Source of the DNA: Flavobacterium sp. M31R6
GTDB taxonomy: Bacteria; Bacteroidota; Bacteroidia; Flavobacteriales; Flavobacteriaceae
DNA length: 64,000 nt
Assembly: GCF_013284035.1 (NCBI RefSeq)
Contig: NZ_CP054141.1
Coordinates: forward strand, 4,092,001 to 4,156,000
Reading direction: 5' to 3'
Shown here: positions 20,530 through 62,573 of the stretch, piece after piece
How the letters are laid out: every line of letters begins with the position of its first letter
Position numbering within the stretch: position 1 is the stretch's first letter
Notes under the pieces: generated by a model
The model's input: only the letters and a program-made list of their open reading frames with translations
What the model was told of the DNA's origin: nothing
The model's database searches: none
Position numbers and translations under genes: made by a program

Positions 20530-20530
20530 T

Positions 20531-21571: not shown

Positions 21572-21677
21572 TTTTTTGTTTTAAGTTATCGATTTTCAAA
21601 TATCAGTTTTCTAAAAAAGCACTTCAGACTTTGAAATTTTCAACTAAGAATTAATCACTAGTCACTAATTGTTAATT

Positions 21678-22337: not shown

Positions 22338-23428
22338 TGGGCAAGTCTGTTTTTTGCCTCGATTATAATTTTGTTCATTCCCAGGTTCCACATTTCTGTT
22401 GAATATAATTCATTAGATAATTCAGGTATTTCAAATTTACCTTCTAAAAATTCATTTATGGCTTTTTCCCATGCCGAAACAAAATGCGGATTTTCAATTA
22501 ATTTACCCAATTTCCCATATTGAAGTACCTCTGGAACTCCGCCTATAGCCGATGCAATACAGTAATTACCGCAATGCAATGCTTCTATTAAGCTCATGCC
22601 AAAACCTTCATGACAAAGTGTAGGAAACAAATAACAATCAGAACTTTGGAAATAAACAGGAAGTTCATCATTAGGAATTCGACCTAAATACATCACTCCA
22701 TCTTGGGGCGTTTTGGGCTCGCAACCAATAACCCATAACACTATGTCTTGCCTAGTTTTATACACTCGCTTCCAAGCCTCCAGTAAAATACTCAACCCTT
22801 TTTTCGGACGATCCTGTGAACACCATACAAAAACAGTTTTATCGTTTGTATTTTTTGTTTGCTTAATCGCTTGCTTCTCTTTTAGCGAAAGTGGAAAAAA
22901 CTTTTTGGTATCAATACCATTATGCAAAACCGAAAATCGAGTAGGCAATACTGTATAATAATTTTTATGTGCCAAATACGAATCATTCGTTAATAACACC
23001 ATTTCATCTATAGACTCAAAAAACCATCTGCCATTATAATTTTCATAAAAAGGTGGAAAACCATGATAAAAAAACTGAAGACAAGAATTGGATCGCAGCC
23101 CTTTTGAAACCAAAAAAGCAGTAAGTGGCTTTACAATTCCAAAATTATCTATGATTTGAATAATGTATTTTTCGTTTGGTTTCAGAATTTTATCCAAAGC
23201 TTCAAAATAGCCTAAGTACTTATTTTTTTTGACTTTTCTTCTTATTTTAAAAAGTAAACCATTAGCAATCAAACTGTACGCAACATTCTCAAACTGTTTT
23301 TCAGGTGGCTCGCATACTATAAAATCTACTTGATGCTCCTTTTGCAAATAATTTTTATACAGCGTAGTCCAACTTCCTATTTTTGAAAAAGGGAGCGGAA
23401 CTTGTGATAGTAGAATTACTTTGGTCAT
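22334..23428 (-). CDS. Glycosyltransferase family 4
   Basis: This 364-residue GT4 enzyme has a donor-half entry TVFVWCSQDRPKKGLSILLEAW near 205-225 and the donor motif CHEGFGMSLIEALHCG near 277-292, followed by SAIGGVPE. ATG at 23426-23428 is used; the frame also has a TTG two codons earlier. It overlaps neuA by 4 bp, so it is co-translated with the nonulosonic-acid genes. It may act in the same oligosaccharide, but it is not a known sialyltransferase family. Confidence 0.88.
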   Translation of the reverse strand: MTKVILLSQVPLPFSKIGSWTTLYKNYLQKEHQVDFIVCEPPEKQFENVAYSLIANGLLFKIRRKVKKNKYLGYFEALDKILKPNEKYIIQIIDNFGIVKPLTAFLVSKGLRSNSCLQFFYHGFPPFYENYNGRWFFESIDEMVLLTNDSYLAHKNYYTVLPTRFSVLHNGIDTKKFFPLSLKEKQAIKQTKNTNDKTVFVWCSQDRPKKGLSILLEAWKRVYKTRQDIVLWVIGCEPKTPQDGVMYLGRIPNDELPVYFQSSDCYLFPTLCHEGFGMSLIEALHCGNYCIASAIGGVPEVLQYGKLGKLIENPHFVSAWEKAINEFLEGKFEIPELSNELYSTEMWNLGMNKIIIEAKNRLAQ

Positions 23429-42665: not shown

Positions 42666-44264
42666 TTAAAAATAATATTCCAAGGAAATCTTAACTTGCA
42701 TATTGAGTTTATTATTTTCCAATTGCCATTGGTAATTACGCATTAAAGCAGCATTAAATTTAGCTTGTATCCCTATATTACCAAAACGATGGTAAGTATA
42801 AGCATTAAAATTCAAATCTACCCATTTATGATTATAGTCGGTATAAGCATCATAATAGAAATCCATGTTATGTGCATAGCGTTCCAACTGTACTCCCCAA
42901 ACCTTTTCTTTATTCCAAAGACTAAAATCCAATGTTTGAGAATTACCTCCAGGTCCAATACCTGCACCTATCACTTGACTTTCATTTGTATAACCTTGAC
43001 GAACTTTCCCATGTCGATACCATGCCCCAGCAGGTCTCACGAGTTGATCAGCAGTCTGCTGCATTTGAGTGTTTTCAAAATTAAATTTTAAATAACTACC
43101 TTTTTGTGAATCTATAATAAATATTTTGCTAAATCCTACTAAATAAGCCCTAGAATGCTCAGGAGACTCAAATAAATCCCAAAGAGTTGAAGAATGATCA
43201 TTCCAACCATTTTCAATATACACTTCTGCTTTCGATTCTTTCAAAACCCACCTAAGAAATAAAGAAGCTATTTGATCTCGATTTTTTTCTTCCTCATTTT
43301 TTACATTTTTCTTTTGAAATGGACTTAGTACAGGAAAATAATCATTAAAACTATTACCCATCTCATTATGATACACCTGAAATACACGATTCATTCCTAC
43401 AAACAAACCAGGTATCCATTTAGGCTGGTAATTAACTGATAAACCATTAATATAACGCCATTCCTCCACTTTTGGCCATTTATTATTTACCCCATCAACT
43501 ATATATTCTTCCTCAGGAAAATCAAAACCTGAGTCTTGTAACTTTCCTGATATCACTTGTCCTTCAAAACTGCCTAAAAAAGTTTTTATAGGCTTTCTCG
43601 TATTCAATGTAAAATGTAAAAAACCAAGAGCATTATTGCTCATAATAAGAGAATTACGCTGACCTGGACCCCACCAAAGATTTTCTGTAGACAAGCCAAT
43701 TGATATTTTTTTTATTGCTAAACTAACATTACTCTGCCCCCAACCTAAATATTGATAATTCTTATTACCAAATCGTTCTAAAATGTTGTGATGGTTCAGA
43801 TATTCAACATGAACTAATCTAACATCGTCTGATTCTGTTAACGGAAAAGTTTCAAAATTAGGATTAGCTGCATAAACATACTCTGGTTTAAGCTTAATAC
43901 TCAAAGGACCATAACTGGCATATAACCCGGCACTGAATAACATTTGATAACCTTTGGCAGGAATCATAGCTCCATCGTTCCATCCCATAGGAGCTAAACT
44001 ATTGTATTGTTGAGTCAAACTCATCGGCAATCCAGTAATATAAAATTTACGGGGCAATTCTTTATCCGAATAAGTTTTATTTTCATGAATTAAACTTTGC
44101 GGTAGGGGGCGTAATGTAAAAGAAAATAACGAATCAATTTTCCCCAACAATTGTTCATTTCTCAACCTGTCTTCAATCATGTCTAAAGAACCAACTGAGA
44201 TGTTTTGTGCATTTATAGTAACTCCAATTGTAAAAAAAAAGACTGCAAAAAATTGTAATTTCAT
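42666..44264 (-). CDS. wzi: Capsule assembly Wzi family outer-membrane protein
   Basis: This 532-residue protein has a signal peptide (about residues 1-19, ending in INAQN). The rest is rich in beta-strand and aromatic residues (SLAIKKISIGLSTENLWWGPGQRN, GPLSIKLKPEYVYAANP), ending in the C-terminal LEYYF typical of outer-membrane barrels. Wzi proteins are 18-strand barrels that help anchor or assemble surface polysaccharide at the outer membrane. The gene is flanked by two long gene-free stretches (740 bp before, 693 bp after) and may be its own transcription unit. Confidence 0.9.
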   Translation of the reverse strand: MKLQFFAVFFFTIGVTINAQNISVGSLDMIEDRLRNEQLLGKIDSLFSFTLRPLPQSLIHENKTYSDKELPRKFYITGLPMSLTQQYNSLAPMGWNDGAMIPAKGYQMLFSAGLYASYGPLSIKLKPEYVYAANPNFETFPLTESDDVRLVHVEYLNHHNILERFGNKNYQYLGWGQSNVSLAIKKISIGLSTENLWWGPGQRNSLIMSNNALGFLHFTLNTRKPIKTFLGSFEGQVISGKLQDSGFDFPEEEYIVDGVNNKWPKVEEWRYINGLSVNYQPKWIPGLFVGMNRVFQVYHNEMGNSFNDYFPVLSPFQKKNVKNEEEKNRDQIASLFLRWVLKESKAEVYIENGWNDHSSTLWDLFESPEHSRAYLVGFSKIFIIDSQKGSYLKFNFENTQMQQTADQLVRPAGAWYRHGKVRQGYTNESQVIGAGIGPGGNSQTLDFSLWNKEKVWGVQLERYAHNMDFYYDAYTDYNHKWVDLNFNAYTYHRFGNIGIQAKFNAALMRNYQWQLENNKLNMQVKISLEYYF

Positions 44265-45771: not shown

Positions 45772-46371
45772 TTAATTTTTGTTATTGTATAAAATACTCA
45801 AAAAAGTCAAAAATATAATTTTAAAATATTCTTTTAAATTTTTATTTTGAATATATTTCATATTCAAACAAATCTTATTCGGCATAATCTGTTCTATGTA
45901 TACTTGTTCAGGATTAGTAACAGACCCCAATATAACATTCTCATCAACATATTCGATAGAAGAATAATCTGTAATTCCAGGTCGTACACTCAAAACTTTA
46001 AACTGATCAGAATTATACAAATCAACATATTTACGCACCTCAGGTCTTGGACCGACCAAACTCATATCCCCTACTAACACATTAAATAATTGAGGAAGTT
46101 CATCGATTTTATATTTTCGAATAAAAAGCCCCATTTGCGTAATACGAGAATCATTACCCCCAATTGTTATCAGTCCTTTTTTATCCGAACCAGTAGCCAT
46201 TGAACGAAATTTATACAATTTAAAATCTTCTCCATTTAAGCCTACCCTGATCTGAATATAAAAGCCTCCTCCTTTACTTTCTAATACTATTAAAAAATAA
46301 ATAATCAAAAACAAAGGAGAAAGTAATAGAATACCAAAAAAAGAAAATGTTATATCAAAAAAACGTATCAT
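45772..46371 (-). CDS. Undecaprenyl phosphosugar transferase, WcfS/PglC-like
   Basis: This 199-residue phosphoglycosyltransferase has one N-terminal membrane segment (about 5-30), QIRVGLNGEDFKLYKFRSM, the catalytic KIDELPQLFNVLVGDMS (Asp-Glu dyad) and LVGPRPEVRKYV. It starts the repeat unit by moving a sugar-1-phosphate to undecaprenyl phosphate. The start overlaps the preceding aminotransferase by 4 bp. In Bacteroides fragilis polysaccharide A the adjacent WcfR/WcfS pair has the same order and sizes and loads 2-acetamido-4-amino-trideoxygalactose; a similar role is inferred here. Confidence 0.92.
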   Translation of the reverse strand: MIRFFDITFSFFGILLLSPLFLIIYFLIVLESKGGGFYIQIRVGLNGEDFKLYKFRSMATGSDKKGLITIGGNDSRITQMGLFIRKYKIDELPQLFNVLVGDMSLVGPRPEVRKYVDLYNSDQFKVLSVRPGITDYSSIEYVDENVILGSVTNPEQVYIEQIMPNKICLNMKYIQNKNLKEYFKIIFLTFLSILYNNKN

Positions 46372-47593: not shown

Positions 47594-48643
47594 TTATCTT
47601 GAGAGTGTTTCGTTTTTATTGCTGTTTTTTTTATTTAAAATTAAAAAATCAAGTATTCCTTCTAGATAACCAAAACCATAACTAAAATGTAGTACAAAAC
47701 AGGTATACATTTGCTTGGAAACATGAATTAAATTAAATTTATTTGTTTGAAAAGCAAAAAAGAAATTTAATAATAAGTAACTAAAAATTTCCAATAAGAA
47801 AACATAAACAAATTTTATATTTAGTAAAATCAATAAAGCAAATATCGGAAATGACAATAAAAATAATACAGGAAATAATTGCCTTATTGTCGTTACCGTT
47901 TTATGCTTTTTATTTACATAAACTTTCCAATAGCCATATTGCCTATACTGTTTGAATAATTTATCAAAACTAGCTCTTACATAATATTTAAATGAAATAT
48001 TTGACTTTAAAAGTATTTTATAACCTGCTTTTATCAATCTAAAGCTAAAATCGTCATCCTGGTTCCTAGTTAAATATTCATCAAAATAACCCAATTCTTC
48101 AAAAATTGATTTTCGAAATGATGGAGGAGTTACAGTATCTACATAAACATCCGTATTAATAGTCCTAAAATTATTAAATCCAACTCCAAATTTTGAAGCC
48201 ATTGCTTTTGAAATAATCTCACTTGTTGCATTTTCATAAACATTAATAATTTTTCCCCCTACACAACCTATTTCATCGTGATTACTCAAAACATCAACAA
48301 TTTCATTTAAGTAATTTTTAGACAATAAAAATCTAGCCCCACATATCATGACTATATTACCTTTAGCCTGTTTAATTCCTAAATTAAAGGCAAAAGGAGT
48401 TCTTTGATTATGATTATCAATAATTGAAATCTGATTGTATTTCCTTTTAATTTCTGGAAATAACTCTCTTGTTCCGTCATTGCTAATTCCATCTACTATA
48501 ATTACTTCAATTAAATCTGAAGGATACTCATTTTCATAAATACATTTAAGGGTTTCTTCGATATGATCTATTTCATTCCTACAAGGAATAATAATCGAAA
48601 CTAAACATTTATTATTAAAATTATTATTCAATTTTAAATACAT
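47594..48643 (-). CDS. Glycosyltransferase family 2, membrane-anchored
   Basis: This 349-residue GT2 has CLVSIIIPCRNEIDHIEETL at about 13-32, VIIVDGISNDGTREL and a DDDFSFRLIKAGY motif. The C-terminal third has two hydrophobic helices (near 255-300), as in processive or membrane-bound GT2 enzymes such as ExoA/succinoglycan-type transferases. It sits between the GT4 gene (3 bp) and the aminotransferase gene (5 bp). It should add a sugar in the Wzx/Wzy repeat. Confidence 0.88.
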   Translation of the reverse strand: MYLKLNNNFNNKCLVSIIIPCRNEIDHIEETLKCIYENEYPSDLIEVIIVDGISNDGTRELFPEIKRKYNQISIIDNHNQRTPFAFNLGIKQAKGNIVMICGARFLLSKNYLNEIVDVLSNHDEIGCVGGKIINVYENATSEIISKAMASKFGVGFNNFRTINTDVYVDTVTPPSFRKSIFEELGYFDEYLTRNQDDDFSFRLIKAGYKILLKSNISFKYYVRASFDKLFKQYRQYGYWKVYVNKKHKTVTTIRQLFPVLFLLSFPIFALLILLNIKFVYVFLLEIFSYLLLNFFFAFQTNKFNLIHVSKQMYTCFVLHFSYGFGYLEGILDFLILNKKNSNKNETLSR

Positions 48644-48646
48644 ACA

Positions 48647-49762
48647 TTAACTATTCATACTGTTTAAATTAACTTTAGAGTATATCCCAATTACCAAATC
48701 TACATTATCTTCCCAATCATAAAGTTTTTTTACACGTTCTCTACCTGCTTTTCCCATTGTAATTCTCAAACTTTTATCTAATATTAATTTTTCAATAGTA
48801 TATGCTGCTTCTTGAGGATTCTTTGACTCAACAACGAATCCAGTTTCATTATTAGCAACAACTTCAGGCAAACCACCAACATTTGAAACCACAACCGGTT
48901 TTTCGCAAGCAGAAGCTTCGATTATGGCAACTCCAAAACTTTCACTATTAGATAATGCTACATAAATGTCCATCATATTTATATAATTCGGGACTAAATA
49001 ATTCTCAACTTTACCTACAAAATTAACATCATTTAAAATATCAAGATTCTCACATAAATTTACGAGCTTTGTTTTATCTTCTCCTTCTCCAACAATCATT
49101 AGCTTTAACTGCAAACTAGGGTTGTCCTCTTTAACGATTTTAAAAGCTTTAATAAGATAATCAATCCCATATTTTGACGACAAAGTCTTAACAGTGCCTA
49201 TTACTATTGCTTCGGAAGAAAAAAAACTATTAGTTTCTATTTTTCTAAATTTTGACAAATCAATTCCAAATGGAGTTATATGGATTCTCTTTTTTGTATA
49301 TTTATTAGTTTCCAATGCCATTACATGGCTTGTTGATAAAATTTCATCAGCTCTATATAGATTAAACTTTATCATCAATTTATGAATAAATGATATTTTA
49401 GGAAAATCATAAATATCACTTCCCCAAACAGATAAAATAAATGGTTTAAAACCACACAGGGCTCCCAACAAACCATAACTAGTGGCATAATGAGCATGTA
49501 CTATGTCTGGTTTAAAATTCTTTATAACTTTTAATAATTTTGGTAAATATTGAATTAAAGTAATTTTTGATATCTCCCCATCTTTTGAAGAATTGTTTTG
49601 AAATCCACCATCAATAATTATTATATTAGAAAACTTTTCATATTCCATATCCTCATTTTTTTCTAGTGAAAATAGACAAATTTCAATATTTCTTTGAGCT
49701 AAGGAAGTTGCCCATCTTTTAGTATGAATGGAATTGGCATTAGAAAGTAAAAGAATTTTCAT
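48647..49762 (-). CDS. Glycosyltransferase family 4
   Basis: This 371-residue GT4 has ILLLSNANSIHTKRWATSLA at the start, PDIVHAHYATSYGLLG near 88-103 and SVWGSDIYDFP. The donor half opens with VIGTVKTLSSKYGIDYLIKAF and carries the motif SESFGVAIIEASACEKPVV. It should be a cytoplasmic retaining transferase of the Wzx/Wzy repeat. It overlaps the polymerase gene by one base. Confidence 0.92.
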   Translation of the reverse strand: MKILLLSNANSIHTKRWATSLAQRNIEICLFSLEKNEDMEYEKFSNIIIIDGGFQNNSSKDGEISKITLIQYLPKLLKVIKNFKPDIVHAHYATSYGLLGALCGFKPFILSVWGSDIYDFPKISFIHKLMIKFNLYRADEILSTSHVMALETNKYTKKRIHITPFGIDLSKFRKIETNSFFSSEAIVIGTVKTLSSKYGIDYLIKAFKIVKEDNPSLQLKLMIVGEGEDKTKLVNLCENLDILNDVNFVGKVENYLVPNYINMMDIYVALSNSESFGVAIIEASACEKPVVVSNVGGLPEVVANNETGFVVESKNPQEAAYTIEKLILDKSLRITMGKAGRERVKKLYDWEDNVDLVIGIYSKVNLNSMNS

Positions 49763-50982: not shown

Positions 50983-52016
50983 AACTGACTGTTAATAACC
51001 CTCATAAATTCTACAGAGTCAACCTTAGTATTCTCCACAACATAAGAGTTTATATTTTTTATTAACTTCACACTTTTTAGTAGATTTATTTTATTCATCT
51101 TTAACAAAACTGGCAGATATAAATAGGCTAATAATCGAGTTATTTCCCATCTAGTTCTTGAATAATAATTACGTGTATTAATTAATCTATTTATGTAATA
51201 CAAGTAAATATTATTAACTGCATTATTATTCTTTTTAATTGTAGAACCAACTTTATGGTAAATAATGGATTCAAAAACACATGCTATTTTTAATTTATTA
51301 TTTTTAAGCCTTAAAGAAAACTCATAATCCTCTTCACCAAAAAAGAAATCCTCAGTTAACAAACCTGTTTTCTTATGCTGAAAAAGCAAAGCACAACCTG
51401 TAATAAATGTTATCAATGAAAAACCGTCTTTAGGAACTACATTAATATTTTGATCCGCAAATAAATACTTTCGACTACCAAAATAAGTTAATTGTCCTCC
51501 ACAATTCCAAATTTTATTATTAGGATCAAACAATCGGATTTGAGGCGTTACAGCAACTATATCTTTATTTATTGCAATAAAATTATCTAAGACAGTTAAA
51601 GTGTTCTTAACTATTTCTGTATCATTATTTAACAACATTACCCAATCAGAATCTATAATCTGTGCTATTTTTGCGCCTATATTATTCCCTTTGGCAAAAC
51701 CATAATTTTCAAAATTTTCAATAAAAAAAAGAATATCCTTAATTGGATTATTACAAATCATTTCTTTTATCAAACCTTCTGAATCATCTATTTGATCTTC
51801 TTTTAAATAAACAATTACCTTAAAAATTTCCGAACAACCTTCCTTTAATTTGTTTAGTGATTCAGCTTCTGAACCATTATCAACTACTATTGGTAAATAT
51901 CTTATATTTTCACTTTCTTTAAACGATGTTAAGCAAGCTAAAGTATCTTTTTCACCATTCCAATTCAAAATAATAATTGGTATTATACTTTTTAACTGGT
52001 TTGCTTTTTGATCCAT
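50979..52016 (-). CDS. Glycosyltransferase family 2 (rhamnosyltransferase-like)
   Basis: This 345-residue GT2 has IIPIIILNWNGEKDTLACL at 9-27, PIVVDNGSEAESL, YGFAKGNNIGAKIA and DWVMLLNNDTEIVKNTL. This is the WbbL-type signature often seen in rhamnosyltransferases. The rml genes could supply dTDP-L-rhamnose, but specificity is inferred. It overlaps the polymerase by 4 bp and the flippase by 25 bp, so it is translationally coupled at both ends. Confidence 0.9.
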   Translation of the reverse strand: MDQKANQLKSIIPIIILNWNGEKDTLACLTSFKESENIRYLPIVVDNGSEAESLNKLKEGCSEIFKVIVYLKEDQIDDSEGLIKEMICNNPIKDILFFIENFENYGFAKGNNIGAKIAQIIDSDWVMLLNNDTEIVKNTLTVLDNFIAINKDIVAVTPQIRLFDPNNKIWNCGGQLTYFGSRKYLFADQNINVVPKDGFSLITFITGCALLFQHKKTGLLTEDFFFGEEDYEFSLRLKNNKLKIACVFESIIYHKVGSTIKKNNNAVNNIYLYYINRLINTRNYYSRTRWEITRLLAYLYLPVLLKMNKINLLKSVKLIKNINSYVVENTKVDSVEFMRVINSQL

Positions 52017-53278
52017 GGATAAATTTTAAATAAAATTAAAAATAATAAAACAAATTCGCCTGTTGACATTGCAATTGCAGCACCAATTACTCCAAAGAAA
52101 CGTGAGACAAAATAGCATAATGAAACGCTCGTAACTCCTGAAATAAAAACAGCTTTTAAAAAATACCTATTAAATCCTAAATTAATTAAGCCGATAATAC
52201 CTAAATAATAATTAAGTCCACCAAGAAAAATAACCGGAAGTAAAACCTGAAAAATAATTATAGCTGTTTGAAATGATTTTCCTAAATACCAAATTAAAAG
52301 ATAGGGTCCAATAAAATATAGGGTGATTGTAAGTACCAACAACAATGATCCATATATTTTTGCAAATCTTCCAAAACTAGGGTCAATTCCTGCTGTGCTG
52401 TTCAGTTTTCTGCCAAAAAAAGGAAATAAAGCTTTTGAAAGAGGTTCCATCAATGATTGCATTGCTTTAATCACCTTTTCCATAGCTGCATACTGACCTA
52501 CCATTGCATAGTTTGTGGTTAATCCTAAAATAATAATATTTGCTTCCCTATAAAAACTCATAGAAACTGTTGACAAAAAAATATGCCAAGAATCTAATAA
52601 ATAGAATTTCATTCTACTAAAAGATGGTTTTGAAAATTGAACTTTTAGGTAATAATTTATTAAAAATAAACTAGCAAAACCACTTATTAAAAATCCAATT
52701 GACTGAAAGAGGTTAATTAAATAATAATCTAAAGGTCTCCGAATAAATACGAATATTAATACCGTAGAAACAATTCTAGTCAGAAGATTAATAATTGTAA
52801 TATATCCCATTTTTTCTACTCCTTGAAAAAGCCAAAATGGTGTAATCGCTTGTCCCCATAAAATACCAAAACCAAACAGATACAATAATTTATTACTCGA
52901 TAAATTAGGAAAAAAAATAAAACTTAACCACAACAATATACTTGCTAATAACGCAAATATCAATCTGATAACGGTAACATTCGTTAAAACATCCGAAACC
53001 ATATCTTTATCATCTCTATTTACAGAAATCAATTTAGTAGCTGAATAATCAAACCCAAAATTAATTAGCAGTAAACAATATTGGAAAATTGAAAATGAAA
53101 AGATATATTCCCCATAATACTCAACTCCGATAGTTCTAGTTAAATATGGAATTAATAAAAGTGGAAAAATAAAACTTAATAAATTTAAAGATGAAAGTGA
53201 AATGAAATTTATAATTACAGTTTTTATTTCCTCGTTCTTAAGTTTTTTTGAAACTACGGATAAATATTTAGAAATCAT
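51992..53278 (-). CDS. wzx: Lipid-linked repeat-unit flippase (Wzx)
   Basis: This 428-residue protein has about twelve membrane helices and the polysaccharide-synthase motifs LIPYLTRTIGVEYYGEYIFSF, GWILWGQAI-like WGQAITPFWLFQG and AMEKVIKAMQSL. Wzx flips undecaprenyl-PP-linked repeats across the inner membrane. The N-terminal half is typical of the MATE-like fold. The gene overlaps the following GT2 gene by 25 bp. About 60 bp separate it from the wbpB-type gene. Confidence 0.93.
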   Translation of the reverse strand: MISKYLSVVSKKLKNEEIKTVIINFISLSSLNLLSFIFPLLLIPYLTRTIGVEYYGEYIFSFSIFQYCLLLINFGFDYSATKLISVNRDDKDMVSDVLTNVTVIRLIFALLASILLWLSFIFFPNLSSNKLLYLFGFGILWGQAITPFWLFQGVEKMGYITIINLLTRIVSTVLIFVFIRRPLDYYLINLFQSIGFLISGFASLFLINYYLKVQFSKPSFSRMKFYLLDSWHIFLSTVSMSFYREANIIILGLTTNYAMVGQYAAMEKVIKAMQSLMEPLSKALFPFFGRKLNSTAGIDPSFGRFAKIYGSLLLVLTITLYFIGPYLLIWYLGKSFQTAIIIFQVLLPVIFLGGLNYYLGIIGLINLGFNRYFLKAVFISGVTSVSLCYFVSRFFGVIGAAIAMSTGEFVLLFLILFKIYPWIKKQTS

Positions 53279-53339: not shown

Positions 53340-54383
53340 TTATATTAAAACATTATTGTTGCTATATATTCTCTCAATAATATCTACCACTTTCATACCC
53401 TCCAGTGCATTTGTAGAGATACTATCCTTACCTGCGATTACATTTGAAATATTCTCATATACATAATGATGATTGGCAGCTGATCCTTTATACTGTCCAT
53501 AATCATTTGGCGGATTACTTTCGGCAAGAACTGGCATAACATAATCTTTGATATGACAATATTCCACTTCATTCATATATTGACCACCAACTTTTACAGA
53601 ACCATTTTCGGCTACAATGGTAATTGAGCTTTCTAAATTTTTATCCCAAACAGCAGTAGAATAGTTCAAATTACCCATGCCTCCTTCTACAAAATCAAAA
53701 GAAACAAACCCTGAATCTTCAAAATCCGTACTCTTTTCATGCATAAAATCATTTAACCTTGCATTAATATTAGTTACATCACCAAAATACCAATACATCA
53801 AATCGATAAAATGAGAAAATTGTGTAAACAAGGTCCCTCCATCAAGATCTTTTGTACCATGCCAACTTGTTGGTTTTCCGGTTTTAGTATCAGGTTTATA
53901 ATAACGATTATCGCGATTCCAATAACAATTAATTTGAACCATAAAAATTTTACCTAAAATACGCGCTTCAAGCACTTCTTTAAGCCAAACTGATGGCGGA
54001 GAATAACGGTTTTGCATTACACAAAACACTTGTTTGTGTTTTTGAAGTGCCTTAAATATAATTTGCTCACAACCTGCTTTTGTCAATGCCATAGGTTTTT
54101 CTATTACAACGTGGCAATTGTTCTCTAAAACTTGCAAACCTTGCTCTTGGTGAAACCCATTAGGTGTTGCTATTGCTACAGCATCAACTTCTAAGCCAGA
54201 ATCAAATAAAGCATCCAGAGAATTGAAAAACTTTGCATTTGGGTAATTTTCTAACCCTAACTCTTCTCTTTTTTTGATATCACACAGAGCTACCAATTCA
54301 AAATCGGAATTCCCTAGAATCATACTCGCATGTCTTTTACCGATATGACCACAACCTATCACTGCAAATTTTATTTTACTCAT
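53340..54383 (-). CDS. wbpB: UDP-GlcNAcA 3-dehydrogenase (WbpB/WlbA-type Gfo/Idh/MocA)
   Basis: This 347-residue oxidoreductase has the NAD motif FAVIGCGHIGKRHA (6-19), the family EKPMALT (Lys in the EKP motif) and a GGTLFTQFSHFIDLMYWYFG stretch with the catalytic His. WbpB/WlbA enzymes oxidise C3 of UDP-GlcNAcA and recycle their NADH by reducing 2-oxoglutarate to 2-hydroxyglutarate. The neighbouring wbpD, wbpE, lhgO and wbpA genes support the call. The first ATG is at 54381-54383; the TTG two codons earlier is less likely. Confidence 0.9.
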   Translation of the reverse strand: MSKIKFAVIGCGHIGKRHASMILGNSDFELVALCDIKKREELGLENYPNAKFFNSLDALFDSGLEVDAVAIATPNGFHQEQGLQVLENNCHVVIEKPMALTKAGCEQIIFKALQKHKQVFCVMQNRYSPPSVWLKEVLEARILGKIFMVQINCYWNRDNRYYKPDTKTGKPTSWHGTKDLDGGTLFTQFSHFIDLMYWYFGDVTNINARLNDFMHEKSTDFEDSGFVSFDFVEGGMGNLNYSTAVWDKNLESSITIVAENGSVKVGGQYMNEVEYCHIKDYVMPVLAESNPPNDYGQYKGSAANHHYVYENISNVIAGKDSISTNALEGMKVVDIIERIYSNNNVLI

Positions 54384-54389
54384 CTTCAA

Positions 54390-54965
54390 TTAACTTATTT
54401 TGATTACTGAATTATTTTCTAATTTATATTCTTGTTTACTTTCATCGCAAACAGCAACACCTTCTTTATTAAATTCCAAACGATGCCCATACTCTCCTAC
54501 CCATCCAATTTGTCTGGCTGGATTTCCTACAAACAGAGCAAATGAGGGAACATTTTTGGTAACTACCGCACCGGCTCCTATAAAAGCATATTCGCCAATA
54601 TCATGTCCACAAACAATAGTTGCATTTGCCCCTATACTAGCCCCTTTACCCACATGGGTTTTAGCATACTGATCACGTCTGTTTATGGCACTACGAGGAT
54701 TAATAACATTTGTAAAAACCATTGAAGGACCCAAAAAAACGTCATCATCACAAGTTACGCCAGTGTATATGGAAACATTATTTTGCACCTTGACATTATT
54801 ACCTAATACGACTTGTGGTGAAATCACTACATTTTGTCCAATATTACATTTTTCTCCCATTATACAATTTGACATAATGTGTGAAAAATGCCATATTTTA
54901 GTACCATTGCCAATTGTACAGCCAGCATCAACAATCGATGTTTCGTGTGCGAAAAAATTTTCCAT
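54390..54965 (-). CDS. wbpD: UDP-GlcNAc(3N)A acetyltransferase (WbpD-like)
   Basis: This 191-residue left-handed beta-helix acetyltransferase has the hexapeptide repeats IGNGTKIWHFSHIMSN, IGQNVVISPQVVLGNNVKVQ and a final IGEYAFIGAGAVVTKNVP. WbpD acetylates the 3-amino group of UDP-GlcNAc(3N)A. The short length, HIMSN-type motif and its place between wbpE and wbpB support that. It ends 6 bp before the wbpB ATG. Confidence 0.9.
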   Translation of the reverse strand: MENFFAHETSIVDAGCTIGNGTKIWHFSHIMSNCIMGEKCNIGQNVVISPQVVLGNNVKVQNNVSIYTGVTCDDDVFLGPSMVFTNVINPRSAINRRDQYAKTHVGKGASIGANATIVCGHDIGEYAFIGAGAVVTKNVPSFALFVGNPARQIGWVGEYGHRLEFNKEGVAVCDESKQEYKLENNSVIKIS

Positions 54966-54968
54966 ATT

Positions 54969-56102
54969 TTAGCTTTTAAAGAAAGAAATTACCTGACTAC
55001 ATACATATTCCATTGATTCTAGTTCCATTTCGGTATGAACAGGCAATGAAATTACTTCGTTGCATAAAATTTCTGTTACGTCTAATTTAAAATCTGAATT
55101 GACAAATTGTTGAAATGCTTCTTGCTTGTATAATGGAAGTGGATAATATATCATACTAGGGATTCCCTTCTCAGATAGAAATTTTTGCAATTCATCTCTT
55201 TTACCATTTTTAATTCTCAAGGTATATTGATGGAAAACATGTGTACTGTTTGATTGTCTTTTGGGAACTTGAATTTCTTCAATAGCTGCAAAAGCAGTAT
55301 CATAAAAAGAAGCCATTTGATTACGCGCCTGACTGTAATTATCTAAATGCCTTAATTTAATATTAAGAATAGTCGCTTGTATAGTATCCAATCTGGAATT
55401 ACATCCCAAAACCTTATGATAATATTTTTTTTCTTGTCCATGATTGGCAATCATCCGCATCTTTTGAGCTAATTCATCTTCATTAGTCATTAACGCTCCT
55501 CCATCACCATAACAGCCTAAATTTTTTGAAGGAAAAAAAGAAGTACTCCCGATATGTCCTATCGTTCCTGTTTTTGCAGTACGCCCATCGGAGAAAGTAT
55601 AAGTAGCTCCAATCGCTTGAGCATTGTCTTCAATAACAAACAAATTGTATTTATTAGCCAACTTCATAATTGGTTCCATATCACACGATTGACCGTATAA
55701 ATGAACTGGCACAATTACTTTAGTTCTCAGCGTAATTGCTTTTTCAATAATTTCAGCAGTAATATTAAAAGTGTTTTCATCTACTTCAACCATCACTGGA
55801 ATTAAACCAAGTAATCCGATAACTTCTGCAGTTGCTACATATGTAAAAGAAGGACAAATTACTTCATCACCTCTTTCAAGTCCAAGTGCCATCATGGCTA
55901 TTTGCAACGAATCTGTACCATTAGCACAAGGAATAACATGCTTTACATTAAGATACTTTTCCAAACTTGTTTGAAATTCTTTTACGGCAGGACCGTTGAT
56001 GAAAGCAGTACTACCAATACAATCAATTACGGCATTATCGATTTCTTCTTTTATGTGGTGGTATTGCGTTTTTAAATCCACCATTTGAATGGGTTTCTTC
56101 AT
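54969..56102 (-). CDS. wbpE: UDP-3-keto-GlcNAcA aminotransferase (WbpE-like)
   Basis: This 377-residue DegT-family PLP enzyme has MVDLKTQYHHIKEEIDNA at 7-24, VICPSFTYVATAEV, FVIEDNAQAIGATY and the Schiff-base Lys193 in FFPSKNLGCYGDGG. The PSKNLG motif marks the WbpE/WlbC group that aminates the 3-keto sugar, using glutamate as donor and giving 2-oxoglutarate. That product can serve as oxidant for WbpB. The gene is 3 bp from wbpD and 3 bp from the lhgO-type gene. Confidence 0.93.
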   Translation of the reverse strand: MKKPIQMVDLKTQYHHIKEEIDNAVIDCIGSTAFINGPAVKEFQTSLEKYLNVKHVIPCANGTDSLQIAMMALGLERGDEVICPSFTYVATAEVIGLLGLIPVMVEVDENTFNITAEIIEKAITLRTKVIVPVHLYGQSCDMEPIMKLANKYNLFVIEDNAQAIGATYTFSDGRTAKTGTIGHIGSTSFFPSKNLGCYGDGGALMTNEDELAQKMRMIANHGQEKKYYHKVLGCNSRLDTIQATILNIKLRHLDNYSQARNQMASFYDTAFAAIEEIQVPKRQSNSTHVFHQYTLRIKNGKRDELQKFLSEKGIPSMIYYPLPLYKQEAFQQFVNSDFKLDVTEILCNEVISLPVHTEMELESMEYVCSQVISFFKS

Positions 56103-56105
56103 AAT

Positions 56106-57311
56106 TTATTTATATTTTTTTAAAGCTAAAGTAGCTATACTTTCACCTATCGCTAACGATGATGTTGCAGCAGGCGATGGAGCATTACATACATTAATTA
56201 TATTGCTATCTTCAAAAATCAAAAAATCATCAGAGAGATTTCCTTTGCTATCACAGGCTTGTGCACGAACTCCAGCATTACCTACTTCTAAATCCTCTTT
56301 TTGAATTTCTGGAATTAATCTTTGTAATGCCTTTGTAAATGCTGTTTTTGAATAGGAACGGTACATCTCATACATACCATCTTTCCAATATTTTAAAGCA
56401 ACTTTTTGAAAACCAGAATGCCCCAAAGTTTCAAAAAGCTCTTTCCAATTAACCATTTTGTTAGTATATCCCTCTCTAGCAAAAGCCAATACCGCGTTAG
56501 GACCTGCTTCAACACCTCCATGAACCATTCGTGTAAAATGAACACCTAAAAAAGGGAAATTAGGATTGGGCACCGGATAAATTAAATTCTTAACTAAATA
56601 TTCTTTTTCTTTTTTAATGTTAAAATATTCTCCTCTAAAAGGCAAAATTTGAACATCAAGACTTTTATTGGTCATTTTTGCTATTTTATCAGAATAGAGT
56701 CCTGCACAATTAATAACAGTTTGACAAAAATATTCAGTTTGACTTGTTTCAACTATATTTTTACCATCAATATTATTTGAAAAAAAACCTTTGATCTCTT
56801 GATTGTAAAATATAAGACCACCTAATTCTATAAATAAATCTAAATATTTTTGTGAAACTTCTTTATAATCTATAATCCCAGTTTGGGGAACCCAAATTCC
56901 CGAGATACCACTGCAGTGGGGCTCAATTTCTTTAATTTCTTGAGCGTTTATTTTTTTAATTCCCAGAAGTCCATTGGCAATACCCCTATCATAAATACCT
57001 GACATAATTGACAATTCCTCTTTCTCTGTTGCCACAATTATTTTACCACAAAGATCATATTTAATTTCATTTTCATTACAAAACTGAATCAATTGATCAT
57101 ATCCTTTTTTACAATTTATAGCTTTTAAACTCCCTGGGTTATAATAAATTCCAGAATGAATAACTCCACTATTATGACCTGTTTGGTGCAAAGCGATTTT
57201 AGGTTCTTTTTCTAAAATAATAACTTTTAATAGAGGATTTTGTTTCTTTAGTTGATATGCAGTTGAAAGTCCTACAATCCCCCCTCCTATAATAATAAAA
57301 TCTGTTTTCAA
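56106..57311 (-). CDS. lhgO: L-2-hydroxyglutarate oxidase (LhgO-type FAD enzyme)
   Basis: This 401-residue FAD-dependent oxidase has the dinucleotide motif FIIIGGGIVGLSTAYQL at 5-21, KIALHQTGHNSGVIHSGIYY at about 38-57 and a late NVCNAPSPAATSSLAIG. These features match the L-2-hydroxyglutarate oxidase family, which oxidises L-2-hydroxyglutarate to 2-oxoglutarate and passes electrons to the quinone pool. It lies 3 bp from wbpE and 15 bp from wbpA. Because WbpB makes 2-hydroxyglutarate, a recycling role in the same pathway is likely. The start is TTG at 57309-57311; stops upstream leave no ATG choice. Confidence 0.9.
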   Translation of the reverse strand: MKTDFIIIGGGIVGLSTAYQLKKQNPLLKVIILEKEPKIALHQTGHNSGVIHSGIYYNPGSLKAINCKKGYDQLIQFCNENEIKYDLCGKIIVATEKEELSIMSGIYDRGIANGLLGIKKINAQEIKEIEPHCSGISGIWVPQTGIIDYKEVSQKYLDLFIELGGLIFYNQEIKGFFSNNIDGKNIVETSQTEYFCQTVINCAGLYSDKIAKMTNKSLDVQILPFRGEYFNIKKEKEYLVKNLIYPVPNPNFPFLGVHFTRMVHGGVEAGPNAVLAFAREGYTNKMVNWKELFETLGHSGFQKVALKYWKDGMYEMYRSYSKTAFTKALQRLIPEIQKEDLEVGNAGVRAQACDSKGNLSDDFLIFEDSNIINVCNAPSPAATSSLAIGESIATLALKKYK

Positions 57312-57326
57312 ATCAATTCCTTTAGA

Positions 57327-58622
57327 TTATAATCTCCAATAATTTTTAAATTCTTTAGGATTCATCACTCCTTTTATATCAAACATAAAAAGTTCATCCT
57401 TGGATAACTTTTGAAAATCCAAAACATTCATTTTAACATATTTATTATGTCCAACAGCTAAAACGATAACATCATATAATCCGACTGGTTCATCAATTAG
57501 GGTTACTCCATATTCATGAGCCAATTCATTTGGACATCCATGGGGATCTATAACATGCACATGAATCGAATAATCCATTAACTCTTTTATCAAATCAACC
57601 ACTTTTGAATTTCTAATGTCTGCTACATCTTCCTTAAATGTAACTCCCATAACAAGAACTTTAGATTTACCAGGATTTTTATCTTGTTCAATTAAAGCTT
57701 GTACAATTCTTTTAGCAATAAAACTAGGTATGAAATCATTCACTCTCCTTCCGGCTGCAATAACTTGTGGATCAACACCTAATTGTTTGGCTTTATGCAT
57801 CAAATAAAATGGATCAACACTAATACAATGTCCTCCCACTAGACCTGGTTGGTATTTATGAAAATTCCATTTCGTTCCCGCCGCTTCAATTACCGCTTTG
57901 GTATCAATCCCCATTTTATCAAAAATAATTGCCAATTCATTCATCAAAGAAATATTTATATCCCGTTGGGTGTTTTCTATAACTTTTGCAGCTTCCGCAA
58001 CCTTTATTGACTCGGCTTTATGTAATCCGGCTTTAATAATACTTCCATATACATCAGAAATCATTTCTAAAGCCTCTTCATCATTCCCTGAAACAATTTT
58101 TAATATATTGGTTAAAGTTTTAACTTTATCACCAGGAACAATACGTTCTGGACTATATCCAAATTTAAAATCTATTCCCCCTTTAAGTCCTGAAATTTCT
58201 TCCAATATGGGAACACAATCCTCTTCAGTACAGCCCGGATAGACAGTAGATTCATAAACAACATAATCCCCTTTTTTAAGGGCAGAAGCAACGCTTCTAG
58301 AGGCACCTAATAATGGATTCAAATTTGGCACTTTATTCTCATCTATATCTGTTGGCACTCCGACTATATGAAAATGGGCTTTTTTCAAATCCTCCACATC
58401 AGAAGTAAACACAATATCGCAGTCTTCAAAAGCATTAGTATCTAATTCTTTCGAAGGGTCTATTCCTTTTTTCATCAATTCTACTCTGGATACATTGATA
58501 TCAAAACCTATCACTTTGAAATGCTTAGCAAATTCCAAAGCGAGAGGCAAACCAACATAACCTAAACCAGTTACTGAAATAATTTTTTCTTTATTAAGAA
58601 ATGAATCTATTAGTTTTGACAT
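57327..58622 (-). CDS. wbpA: UDP-N-acetylglucosamine 6-dehydrogenase (WbpA/TviB-like)
   Basis: This 431-residue nucleotide-sugar dehydrogenase has the NAD motif SVTGLGYVGLPLALEF at 16-31 and the catalytic-loop motif GGHCISVDPFYLMHKA with its Cys. VPTDIDENKVPNL and YESTVYPGCTEEDC are typical of the WbpA/TviB branch. It oxidises C6 of UDP-GlcNAc to give UDP-GlcNAcA, the first step of the wbpABDE pathway. It leads the block; a 230-bp AT-rich gap separates it from wzz. Confidence 0.94.
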   Translation of the reverse strand: MSKLIDSFLNKEKIISVTGLGYVGLPLALEFAKHFKVIGFDINVSRVELMKKGIDPSKELDTNAFEDCDIVFTSDVEDLKKAHFHIVGVPTDIDENKVPNLNPLLGASRSVASALKKGDYVVYESTVYPGCTEEDCVPILEEISGLKGGIDFKFGYSPERIVPGDKVKTLTNILKIVSGNDEEALEMISDVYGSIIKAGLHKAESIKVAEAAKVIENTQRDINISLMNELAIIFDKMGIDTKAVIEAAGTKWNFHKYQPGLVGGHCISVDPFYLMHKAKQLGVDPQVIAAGRRVNDFIPSFIAKRIVQALIEQDKNPGKSKVLVMGVTFKEDVADIRNSKVVDLIKELMDYSIHVHVIDPHGCPNELAHEYGVTLIDEPVGLYDVIVLAVGHNKYVKMNVLDFQKLSKDELFMFDIKGVMNPKEFKNYWRL

Positions 58623-58852: not shown

Positions 58853-59923
58853 CTACAAATTCAAATTTTTCAGTAATCTCCTTACGATCAGGAACAACAT
58901 TATTAGAAACCACCCTAAAAACCATCCCATTATTAAGCCTTTAGCTTTTCCAAAACGTTCTTTTGATAATGGTAAAATAGGACGATCAATTACTTGTATT
59001 AAAGGCGTTTCCTTACGCAAAGTAACTTTAGCCATTTCGGATTGTTTGACCAATTCGGTCAATATAGCCGTATTCGCCTGTACATCAACTTGTCTGCGAG
59101 CAGAAGGAGTGCGTCGTACATTGAGTGCTGGATTCAACATAAAAGTATTGTCATTGGCTACGGCTACTCCAGTAATGGCACCGTTGAGTTCCGAACGAAT
59201 AGAGTCAGTTTGACGTTCCAAAATTTCCATATTCATACGAGCTTTTTTGCTTTTAGTAGTCACATAGAATTTACCTACTTGCTTAGCTAATGCTTCACAA
59301 AAATAAAAGGAAAATAATTCATTATTCGAAGCCACATCCATAGAAATAATGGCTATTTTTTTATCTTTTTGAGCAACAGAAAGTCCTTCTTTTGATAATT
59401 CTTTATACATCTCACCTAAAATACTATCATGTACCCGAGTGAAATACTTACGCTTGGTTTCAGGTATAAACTGTACATTCTTAAACTTTGGTTCGTCCTC
59501 CCAATCTTCTCTCCATCCGTTAATTTGTATGTACATCTCGGCCAAGGAAATTACTTTTCCATTTACCGTAACTGGAGTCATCAAGGTCTGTTCCACCATA
59601 GTACGGGATTTGAATAACTCGGTTAGATTCGATCCTGTAAAGATACTCCCTCCACCTCCGCCAAGGTCTATCCCTAACGAACTGGCTAATCCAAGTGCTC
59701 CTCCCAATCCACCTCCACCACTTTTCTCATCTTCCAGAGCAAAAGACAATGTTGCAGTATAAACTGGTTTTTTAATGAAAGAATACGTTAACCCCAAAGC
59801 AGCTCCTAACACACTGACCAATAGTATGATTTTCCATTGCGATAGCAAATAAGCATACCATTCCTTTCCTTTCTCAATAAGCTCTTTTAACGAAATCTCA
59901 TCATTAGGGATTTGTTTCTCCAT
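58853..59923 (-). CDS. wzz: Polysaccharide chain-length determinant (Wzz family)
   Basis: This 356-residue inner-membrane protein has a membrane helix at about 30-50 (QWKIILLVSVLGAALGLTYS) and a second at about 328-350 (LIMGWFLGWFLIMLF). Between them is a mostly periplasmic domain with a glycine-rich stretch (GGGGLGGALG, LGGGGGS) near 68-95. This is the Wzz/GumC N-terminal layout. It lacks the C-terminal tyrosine-kinase domain of Wzc. It should control chain length of the Wzy product and lies just downstream of wza. Confidence 0.92.
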   Translation of the reverse strand: MEKQIPNDEISLKELIEKGKEWYAYLLSQWKIILLVSVLGAALGLTYSFIKKPVYTATLSFALEDEKSGGGGLGGALGLASSLGIDLGGGGGSIFTGSNLTELFKSRTMVEQTLMTPVTVNGKVISLAEMYIQINGWREDWEDEPKFKNVQFIPETKRKYFTRVHDSILGEMYKELSKEGLSVAQKDKKIAIISMDVASNNELFSFYFCEALAKQVGKFYVTTKSKKARMNMEILERQTDSIRSELNGAITGVAVANDNTFMLNPALNVRRTPSARRQVDVQANTAILTELVKQSEMAKVTLRKETPLIQVIDRPILPLSKERFGKAKGLIMGWFLGWFLIMLFLIVRRLLKNLNL

Positions 59924-60047: not shown

Positions 60048-62573
60048 TTATTTAAAAGCAGTAACCATAAGTGTTCCCAAAGTAGTAATTATAGCCCCAA
60101 TACTAACCCATTCTCCAGTTGACATTCTCTTGGTTAATGGTTTTTCGGGCACTACTATTTGTGACCCTGGCAATACTTTTGGATAGGTTCTGAAAAACAA
60201 TAAAAAGGAATTGGAAACCGCCGCTTTACCATTTGGATAAATCACATACGCTTTTTTCTTCCACCCTCTGGCATCCAATCCTCCTACCGCATCCAAATAA
60301 TAATTAAAACTTCTCCCTTTGGTGTAAGGTATCTCAGAAGTCAAAAGCACATTTCCAGTTATTTTTACACTTTCATTATAAGTAGCTACTTCTATCTCAT
60401 CTCCCGGCAAAAGAGTTATGTTGGTATTGTTGGAAGGATCTTTAATGATTTTTCTCCAATCTACTGGAATTGTAGCATATTTCTTTTCTTCCAATAATTT
60501 TTTAGCCAATTTATTTTGAATGGTATCCGATTTTACACCCGAACCGTTATTTTTATCACCTGCTTTTAATTGATCACTTTCAACATCACTAATTTTGGAG
60601 CTCACATTCATACTCACATTCTCCAAATCTTCAATTTGTTTGCCTTTGATAGGTCTCTTAATCTTTACACCGTCCAAATCAGCTACAGAGGTCAATCCGC
60701 CTGCTCTTTGAATGACATCATAAATTTTTTCTTTTTTACTGGCCAGAACATACTTTCCAGTATAGGCAACTGCCCCTGTTATTTTTACCATTTCTGGTTT
60801 TTCAAACACGGCCATTCTTCTAACATTAATTACATCATAAGGCTCTAATACAAAGTTTTTTATTTGTTCGTTAGATTCAGCAGTAATTTCAAGATTAAAC
60901 AATGTAGAACGGTTGGGATCAGTATCATTAATGGTATCCGATTTAATCATACGGGCTACCTCAACATGTTTGGATGCAGAACCTTTTAAACCTCCTGCTT
61001 CAATCAATAGATCATTCAAGGTCAAACGATCATGATAATCATAAACCCCAGGCATTTTAACCTCACCATCTATCGTTATTTTATACTCTTCTCTAAAGTC
61101 TAAAATTGAATATACCGTTACTTTATCTTCTTTACGCAAAGCAATATCAGCATCCATGTCGCCAGACAAAGCTTTCTCCAAATTGACATTGACTATCTCA
61201 GTGGTCAGATCAGATTTCAATCGCACAATTATAGCCCTTTTCTTGTAGGCATCTTCTTTTAGTCCCTCGGCTTGTCGAACCAAATCCGAAAAACGCATTC
61301 CTTCATAAAAGGAGTAAGTATCCGGTCTAAAAACAGCTCCTTCAATGATGATACGATTTTCAAAACGGTTCAAAATTTTCGAAACACGATATACATCACC
61401 ATTCAAAGGAGTATAACTGCCGTATTGCGCCGCTTGTATATCAGCCACCTTAAACTCTTTCCCTGTTTTTTGCAAAACATTTACCGACGCGGTATAAGCA
61501 AATTCATTAAATCCCGAAGCAAAATTTAATAAATCAGAAAAATGCTCCCCTTTTTTCATTTCAAAAATCCCGGGACGCTTTACCTGTCCATCAACCGTAA
61601 CTCGATTGACATAAGCCGGAATCCGAATAACATCATTATCCTTTAAACCAACATTATCCGATTGATTGCCACTCACCAAAAAACGGTAAATGTCTATATT
61701 CTTATAGACCTTATTGTTTCGAATCAACTCTATGTTTCTATAACTTCCATTTTTCCCGGGACCTCCGCCCAAAAATAAAGCGTTGTAAACCGTCGCCAAA
61801 GAGGAGATAGAATAATTTCCGGGTTGTCTACTTCCGATAATCGTTACTTTAATGGTACGAATGCGGCTTAAACTTACACTAACTTGAGATTGTCCCGAAC
61901 GCACCGTACTATAGATTCGCGCGATGGCTCCTTTTATTTTTTGAGTGGCCGCCTCAATAGTCATACCTGACACAGCAATTTGTCCAACGTATTGGATATT
62001 GACTTTTCCTTCCACAGATACAGGTACATTATCATCAAACTCTTGTACACCGTTTACGCTCACTTGTAATTCATCTCCAGGCCCTAAAACATAATTTACG
62101 GGCGTAGCCAACTTCAAATTGGGTTGAAAATTCAAGGTGGGGTTATCAAACAACTCCGAACCAAAAACAAGCGAATTCAAACTGTCTTTTACCTTCTTGT
62201 TTTCTATTTTTTCCTGTTTTCGTTGGGTATCTTCACTATCATCTTGTTCATCTTCCGACTCAGAATCTTTTGATTTCTTCTTGCTTGTTTTTTTATCTGT
62301 CGTCGCTTTGGCCGCTTCCGGAAGAGCCAAACGTTTTTTCAATTTGGCAAATTCTGTAGCACTCATACCTTTTGATAACGCCATAGATTCCGCTTGATCA
62401 ATGGATACATTATTACTTTGCAATTGTGATTTTATCTTGGCAATATCCCCATCGGATAAATAATCTACTCTTACGGTGCTTAAGTCATTCCCTTTTAAAA
62501 TATCCTGAGCCATCAAAGAAGAACTCTGAAAAAGAGCCACTAAAAGGACAATTGCTGTAATTATTTTTTTCAT
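60048..62573 (-). CDS. wza: Outer-membrane polysaccharide export protein (Wza-like, SLBB domains)
   Basis: This 841-residue protein has a signal peptide (about 1-22, cut near MAQD). An acidic/lysine-rich linker lies at about 85-130 (KKSKDSESEDEQDDSED), followed by a Poly_export domain near 150-240 (YVLGPGDELQVSVNGVQEF). Several SLBB repeats follow (RTIKVTIIGSRQPGNY, RVTVDGQVKRPGIFEMKKG, KITIDGEVKMPGVYDYHDR, VKITGAVAYTGKYV). The C terminus has a membrane helix (about 820-840). It forms the periplasm-to-surface channel with Wzz. The extended SLBB array is typical of Bacteroidota. Confidence 0.93.
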   Translation of the reverse strand: MKKIITAIVLLVALFQSSSLMAQDILKGNDLSTVRVDYLSDGDIAKIKSQLQSNNVSIDQAESMALSKGMSATEFAKLKKRLALPEAAKATTDKKTSKKKSKDSESEDEQDDSEDTQRKQEKIENKKVKDSLNSLVFGSELFDNPTLNFQPNLKLATPVNYVLGPGDELQVSVNGVQEFDDNVPVSVEGKVNIQYVGQIAVSGMTIEAATQKIKGAIARIYSTVRSGQSQVSVSLSRIRTIKVTIIGSRQPGNYSISSLATVYNALFLGGGPGKNGSYRNIELIRNNKVYKNIDIYRFLVSGNQSDNVGLKDNDVIRIPAYVNRVTVDGQVKRPGIFEMKKGEHFSDLLNFASGFNEFAYTASVNVLQKTGKEFKVADIQAAQYGSYTPLNGDVYRVSKILNRFENRIIIEGAVFRPDTYSFYEGMRFSDLVRQAEGLKEDAYKKRAIIVRLKSDLTTEIVNVNLEKALSGDMDADIALRKEDKVTVYSILDFREEYKITIDGEVKMPGVYDYHDRLTLNDLLIEAGGLKGSASKHVEVARMIKSDTINDTDPNRSTLFNLEITAESNEQIKNFVLEPYDVINVRRMAVFEKPEMVKITGAVAYTGKYVLASKKEKIYDVIQRAGGLTSVADLDGVKIKRPIKGKQIEDLENVSMNVSSKISDVESDQLKAGDKNNGSGVKSDTIQNKLAKKLLEEKKYATIPVDWRKIIKDPSNNTNITLLPGDEIEVATYNESVKITGNVLLTSEIPYTKGRSFNYYLDAVGGLDARGWKKKAYVIYPNGKAAVSNSFLLFFRTYPKVLPGSQIVVPEKPLTKRMSTGEWVSIGAIITTLGTLMVTAFK

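Follow-up and report, generated by a model that had tools for sequence, protein, structure and literature searches.

The lhgO gene and its operon

The DNA analyzed here is a stretch of 64,000 nucleotides from Flavobacterium sp. M31R6 (contig NZ_CP054141.1, positions 4,092,001 to 4,156,000; hereafter the window). It contains five minus-strand genes, in the order wbpA-lhgO-wbpE-wbpD-wbpB, that span 58622 to 53340. Four of them are assigned to a uridine diphosphate (UDP)-sugar pathway. The remaining one, lhgO, is predicted to encode an oxidase of L-2-hydroxyglutarate (L-2-HG) that depends on flavin adenine dinucleotide (FAD), and its place among the other four is our subject.

57327..58622, minus strand: wbpA, probable UDP-GlcNAc 6-dehydrogenase (TviB/WbpA-type), 431 amino acids (aa); TIGR03026 at 379.9 bits, cut-off 189.8
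56106..57311, minus strand: lhgO, predicted FAD-dependent L-2-hydroxyglutarate dehydrogenase/oxidase, 401 aa; NF008726 at 533.7 bits, cut-off 299
54969..56102, minus strand: wbpE, putative DegT/DnrJ/EryC1-type pyridoxal phosphate aminotransferase (3-amino sugar; glutamate to 2-oxoglutarate), 377 aa; named by context
54390..54965, minus strand: wbpD, putative hexapeptide-type acetyltransferase, 191 aa; named by context
53340..54389, minus strand: wbpB, putative UDP-sugar 3-dehydrogenase of the Gfo/Idh/MocA type, related to the sequential (C. violaceum/B. pertussis) class by its bit scores to solved structures

An earlier note on this DNA had given this gene order, which holds on a single strand. 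It had also given intergenic gaps of 3 to 15 bp, which holds for the first three (15, 3, and 3 bp) and fails for the last, where wbpD and wbpB abut (0 bp, or 6 bp with the ATG start of wbpB). From its TTG start wbpB encodes 349 aa, or 347 aa from the ATG two codons downstream. The names wbpA, wbpB, wbpD, and wbpE are assignments from family and context. WbpA scores 462.9 bits against the TviB model NF011729, under that model's cut-off of 592. WbpE and WbpD likewise stay under the cut-offs of all aminotransferase and acetyltransferase models (best PseC at 234.6 bits for WbpE; NeuD-type at 77.7 bits and others for WbpD), and no NCBIfam model matches WbpB above its cut-off. With wbpD and wbpE placed by family and context, the wbpA, wbpB, wbpE, and wbpD set of the UDP-ManNAc(3NAc)A pathway is present together. 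As the earlier note had stated, no WbpI-type 2-epimerase was found in the window. The sole Epimerase_2 gene there (19408-20544) encodes a NeuC of the hydrolysing type (TIGR03568, 417.5 bits), next to NeuB, and a nearby WbpI was rejected on this ground; this negative covers the window, since the genome's second Epimerase_2 gene lies far outside it and was left untyped. Without a WbpI in the locus, the operon product is probably UDP-GlcNAc(3NAc)A.

Judged by its sequence, the window LhgO is a genuine member of its family, in agreement with the identity first given to it. It scores far above the cut-off of the curated model and is the only match in the genome above the family cut-off, the three others being weak (20-24 bits). 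Its best solved relative is the Drosophila L-2-hydroxyglutarate dehydrogenase (L2HGDH; 8w75, 346 bits), an enzyme described as strictly L-specific (PMC10726252). All six substrate-site residues named in that structure paper are kept: Ser48, His52, Tyr245, Leu255, His258, and Arg349 of the window protein correspond to Ser88, His92, Tyr289, Leu299, His302, and Arg393 of the fly enzyme. The same six occur in 99 of 100 aligned LhgO proteins, the exception (L216) having Ala for Leu. This conservation supports a substrate pocket like that of an L-2-hydroxyglutarate dehydrogenase, and L-2-HG is likely to be what the enzyme oxidizes.

It is useful to compare the enterobacterial glaH(csiD)-lhgO-gabDTP glutarate operon (PMC6265302; L218), whose LhgO shares the family and the pocket residues of the window protein. 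It differs in that its L-2-HG comes from glutarate hydroxylation. The glutarate hydroxylase CsiD, another known source of L-2-HG, was not found in the window genome, and a role in glutarate or lysine catabolism was rejected on that ground; the rest of that route was not looked for. The genome does contain, elsewhere, a candidate YdiJ-like D-2-hydroxyglutarate (D-2-HG) dehydrogenase. Over 948 aa it shares 44% identity with a protein of locus L269 that itself scores 589.9 bits against the YdiJ model, under the cut-off of 1350.

Linkage of lhgO to wbpB in Flavobacterium and related genomes

Gene order, its conservation, co-occurrence, and the kept pocket residues are all direct observations, and together they make it very likely that lhgO is functionally linked to the operon. 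Of 150 sampled Flavobacterium genomes, four contain LhgO (E <= 1e-60) and four contain the WbpB family of the window (E <= 1e-40), and these are the same four: the window genome (G000), G033, G056, and G095 (p 4.9e-8, shared ancestry ignored). Three of them carry the wbpA-lhgO-wbpE-wbpD-wbpB operon. In the fourth, G095, two glycosyltransferase pieces lie between LhgO (43% identity) and a set of wbpB, wbpD, and wbpE; the WbpB of this set shares 46-48% identity with that of the window. Across the co-occurring genomes, identity to the window protein is 74-94% or as low as 48% for WbpB and 85%, 58%, or 43% for LhgO; the pattern therefore does not come from near-identical copies of a single gene block. 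Flavobacterium rhamnosiphilum (L038) has the same operon, and the named close relatives of the window LhgO are mostly Flavobacterium. A chance neighbourhood or mis-called genes were rejected on gene order, model scores, and this co-occurrence.

The earlier note had looked to the adjacency of lhgO and wbpB in other genomes, and that adjacency is common. All 22 LhgO-positive genomes found in families f1 and f2 were inspected. In 19 of them, including all 14 from f2, wbpB lies within five genes of LhgO (exceptions G441, G771, and G781), and in most of these operons lhgO is placed tightly between wbpA and wbpE. One variant is of separate interest. At L084:9744-12822 (G161), and by gene sizes also at L087 (G453), the gene order is otherwise the same and the place of wbpD is taken by genes for an E1/transketolase-type enzyme (643 aa) and a hexapeptide-repeat protein (384 aa), which suggests that the 3-amino sugar receives another acyl group.

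In Flavobacterium and in families f1 and f2, LhgO also follows the kind of WbpB present. A second class, that of the Pseudomonas aeruginosa PAO1 and Thermus enzymes, was found in 3 of 143 Flavobacterium genomes (G071, G100, and G125), none of them among the four with LhgO. LhgO thus accompanies the window WbpB family in 4/4 cases and the PAO1 class in 0/3. For families f1 and f2 within the phylum sample, the corresponding counts are 6/6 (five linked, G441 not) and 0/8. WbpD- and WbpE-like genes were found with both classes. In two f1 clusters of the PAO1 class (L255 and L257), from LhgO-free Flavobacteriaceae genomes, WbpE is 40-42% and WbpD 73-76% identical to the window proteins, and WbpE relatives at 41-43% stand with LhgO in L083, L140, and L245. 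The aminotransferase subtype therefore does not explain the class pattern.

WbpB class and a possible 2-hydroxyglutarate cycle

The earlier note had taken as established that WbpB recycles its NADH by reducing 2-oxoglutarate. This does not carry over directly to the window enzyme, which by sequence is nearest the sequential class and not the PAO1/Thermus ping-pong class (173 versus 33 bits). Its closest solved relatives are 3q2i (172.9 bits) and 3q2k (161.8 bits), which we take to be the WlbA proteins of Chromobacterium violaceum and Bordetella pertussis; the next relative scores 65.3. Against the PAO1/Thermus structures 3o9z and 3oa2 it reaches 35.4 and 32.9 bits over about 200 residues, whereas a PAO1-class member (L207) reaches 354.6 and 396. 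Because closer relatives of 3q2i exist (L140, 240.6 bits), the window WbpB is a separate subfamily within the relatives of the sequential class. LhgO is found near clusters with these clearer sequential-class enzymes as well: L140, L083 (its sister in the WbpB tree), and L245 (by alignment). Twenty-five WbpB positions are candidates for tracking LhgO linkage by the thresholds applied (21 linked rows, mostly f2 and excluding L152 and L153, versus 26).

We propose that LhgO would be a working part of the UDP-GlcNAc(3NAc)A operon. The sequential-class WbpB would oxidize the sugar at C-3 and would reduce 2-oxoglutarate to L-2-HG, either as co-substrate or in a side reaction. LhgO would then oxidize L-2-HG back to 2-oxoglutarate and hand the electrons to the membrane quinone pool, so that an inhibitor would be cleared and the unfavourable 3-oxidation pulled forward. 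We infer that WbpB supplies the 2-hydroxyglutarate, and likewise which isomer it forms, what the pathway gains, and where the electrons go. The quinone drain is modeled on E. coli LhgO, which is described as more active with ubiquinone-1 than with menaquinone-4 (PMC6265302). Since LhgO tracks the WbpB class in Flavobacterium and in families f1 and f2, while WbpD- and WbpE-like genes occur with both classes, co-occurrence points to WbpB as the simplest source of L-2-HG. We consider it an evenly balanced question whether the sequential-class WbpB is that source and LhgO closes the cycle to 2-oxoglutarate.

The general idea of a WbpB-driven 2-hydroxyglutarate (2-HG) cycle is already published for the D isomer. 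In PAO1, WbpB makes D-2-HG and is inhibited by it, a D-2-HG dehydrogenase supports WbpB-dependent lipopolysaccharide synthesis, and a mutant in that dehydrogenase has less O-antigen, as described in PMC8651671. This system is a precedent for our proposal in that a UDP-GlcNAcA 3-dehydrogenase makes 2-HG and an FAD enzyme returns 2-oxoglutarate. It differs in its isomer, in its unrelated FAD enzyme (D2HGDH, PA0317), and in its PAO1-class WbpB, whereas the window has an L-type enzyme within the operon and a relative of the other WbpB class. Elsewhere LhgO keeps the company that one would expect for a 2-HG enzyme: eight other loci have a YdiJ-like D-2-HG dehydrogenase no more than two genes away from it (L269:5391-9473, L159, L162, L181, L188, L194, L197, and L200), of which the L269 copy was scanned against the model and the other seven are 58-63% identical to it. 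One tentative extension, which we think somewhat doubtful, is that both WbpB classes use 2-oxoglutarate to recycle NADH but yield opposite isomers, D-2-HG from the PAO1 class and L-2-HG from the sequential class. D-2-HG would then be cleared by a D-2-HG dehydrogenase encoded elsewhere in the genome and L-2-HG by an LhgO able to travel with the operon, and the description of the second class as sequential would be incomplete. The closed co-substrate cycle proposed in the earlier note is supported in part: LhgO is tied to the pathway by position and co-occurrence, and the 2-oxoglutarate premise belongs to the PAO1/Thermus class. The cycle is possible only if the window WbpB forms L-2-HG, as D-2-HG is the wrong isomer for an L-specific oxidase.

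Several points weigh against this cycle, in enzymology, in phylum-wide distribution, in the trees, and in the settings in which LhgO is found. The original WlbA paper reportedly holds that sequential-class enzymes need no 2-oxoglutarate at all. PMC10622841 describes the B. pertussis and C. violaceum enzymes, to which the window WbpB is only distantly related, as having sequential mechanisms, and contrasts these with the ping-pong mechanism with 2-oxoglutarate of the P. aeruginosa enzyme. A more distant Gfo/Idh/MocA enzyme, D3dgpA, is described as unable to use 2-oxoglutarate (PMC11239390). The sole WbpB product enantiomer found in the literature is D, and a search on 2-hydroxyglutarate, WbpB/WlbA, lhgO, O-antigen, and polysaccharide found no report of WbpB forming L-2-HG; L-2-hydroxyglutarate oxidase together with O-antigen gave one match, a Brucella deletion table. 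If WbpB does not use 2-oxoglutarate, LhgO might merely perform metabolite repair, clearing L-2-HG that a promiscuous cellular enzyme makes from 2-oxoglutarate, for example that released by WbpE. The sequential description of the nearest class favors such repair, as do the many LhgO genes in contexts without wbp genes. However, the LhgO-free clusters L255 and L257 also hold a WbpE-like aminotransferase and WbpD, so that a 2-oxoglutarate-releasing aminotransferase alone does not predict LhgO. We regard repair as rather unlikely, though the most plausible of the alternatives considered here.

Across the phylum, LhgO occurs in 165 of 395 genomes and is equally common with the window WbpB family (37/59) and with the PAO1 class (48/77). 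A linkage specific to sequential-class WbpB everywhere was therefore rejected. The three Flavobacterium genomes with a PAO1-class WbpB are only 86-89% complete. The 22 of 59 genomes that have the window WbpB family and no LhgO at E <= 1e-60 belong to f4 (nine), f13 and f18 (four each), f9 (three), and f5 and f12 (one each). In the WbpB tree, the enzyme of the f12 genome (G492) is the sister of the Parabacteroides distasonis WbpB. P. distasonis is an anaerobe, and LhgO may be of no use to a cell that lacks a suitable respiratory acceptor. Linkage of LhgO and wbpB within about 10 kb, read by eye off coordinate lists and with LhgO positions missing from those lists looked up separately, was seen in 6/59 genomes (G000, G161, G242, G357, G453, and G173) versus 1/77 for the PAO1 class (G184; p 0.04, shared ancestry ignored). 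One PAO1-class cluster, L207, does adjoin LhgO, in the order LhgO, wbpA, wbpE, wbpD, wbpB; a frame on the opposite strand separates wbpA from wbpE. Outside f1/f2, LhgO lies near the window WbpB family in three of the loci examined: L151 (wbpA adjacent, wbpB five genes off), L152, and L153. This survey of contexts was non-random, taking in all f1/f2 matches and the rest from listed matches. In L101, L102, L164, L166, L169, and L205 a simple gene caller showed no LhgO; the first two were read from annotation and the other four were not. Outside the phylum, the contexts comprise eight plasmid-collection matches and one unannotated Bacillus locus (L049).

The 24 wbpB-linked rows require seven label changes in the LhgO tree, and the 24 linked of 69 rows require seven in the WbpB tree. 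One clade forced on all 24 linked LhgO rows was rejected, apparently because the LhgO proteins of L152 and L153 belong to a mostly non-wbp-linked group. A clade of the other 22 was not rejected (p-AU 0.155), nor were smaller forced groups (p 0.13 to 0.50); the grouping was decided on with the tree already in view, and L082 was dropped from the tree as a copy of L041. Seven independent recruitments were thus rejected as a claim. We claim that LhgO is associated with WbpB of several subfamilies, once of the PAO1 class, and we claim no number of origins. A single origin, like the LhgO-free genomes just listed, would suit an LhgO that is a passenger, carried along with moving polysaccharide operons and without a role in the pathway. 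We find this improbable, given that LhgO and the window WbpB family co-occur without exception among the 150 Flavobacterium genomes, across two WbpB subfamilies, that lhgO is closely flanked by wbpA and wbpE in most f1/f2 operons, and that the pocket is kept.

LhgO also occurs in sugar operons where no WbpB was seen. Two Deinococcus plasmids carry an rfbF-lhgO-SDR-rfbC-DRL_cat oxidoreductase operon (L101:6231-11194 and L102:6226-11149), and the same set is present at L268:8283-13227. At L264:8457-16345 (G247), LhgO directly precedes a legionaminic-acid-type operon (LegC-type aminotransferase, NeuD, NeuB, NeuC, and cytidylyltransferase), and in L263 and L265 (G185 and G419) the genes resemble these in size and in their matches. 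L-2-HG may arise in several sugar pathways; otherwise the role of LhgO in these operons would be a more general one. Such recurrence across wbp, rfbF-DRL, and leg operons would also fit an LhgO that oxidizes a sugar-nucleotide or sugar-acid intermediate instead of 2-HG. However, all six pocket residues are kept in the tested wbp-, leg-, and rfbF-linked proteins. These include the equivalents of His302 and Leu299, which an excerpt of PMC10726252 does not list as conserved in GlpO, and the known wbp steps (PMC10622841) leave no open reaction for LhgO. We consider a new substrate unlikely.

Several further observations concern these other settings. Parts of the rfbF-lhgO-SDR-rfbC-DRL set are found in L160 and L163, in the latter followed by a carbamoyltransferase, and this type of operon spans Deinococcota and Bacteroidota. 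In G185 and G247 the leg-type LhgO is a second copy, about 20 kb from wbpB. The plasmid collection holds 211 LhgO records, of which eight regions were opened: the two Deinococcus sugar operons, a Salmonella glaH-lhgO-gabDT operon (L218), a Proteus record almost without annotation, and Priestia, Parageobacillus, Pseudomonas cerasi, and Niallia plasmids, on which no sugar operon was seen around LhgO. On the P. cerasi and Niallia plasmids (L106:6224-8197 and L107:3119-5027), an annotated FadR/GntR-type regulator is followed by LhgO outside sugar loci, probably as a catabolic unit.

The polysaccharide locus and wider meaning

The surroundings of the operon look like a large surface-polysaccharide locus, with the following features in the window.

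60048-62573: export-type protein, recognised by eye only
58853-59923: chain-length-type protein, recognised by eye only; no NCBIfam match
51992-53278: flippase-like protein, recognised by eye only; no NCBIfam match
48647-49762 and 47594-48643: glycosyltransferases
45772-46371: sugar transferase
42666-44264: Wzi-type protein
19408-22391: NeuB, NeuC, and cytidylyltransferase

With a polysaccharide deacetylase, the last three genes form a sialic-acid-type set (18487-22391) within the same locus.

If the proposed cycle is real, it would have several consequences. First, surface-sugar synthesis would be a dedicated bacterial source of L-2-hydroxyglutarate, wired to respiration through an operon-borne oxidase. 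Second, lhgO would provide a genomic marker for 2-HG-forming sugar dehydrogenases. Finally, the operon would offer a simple way to find out if 2-oxoglutarate is truly ignored by the second WbpB class.

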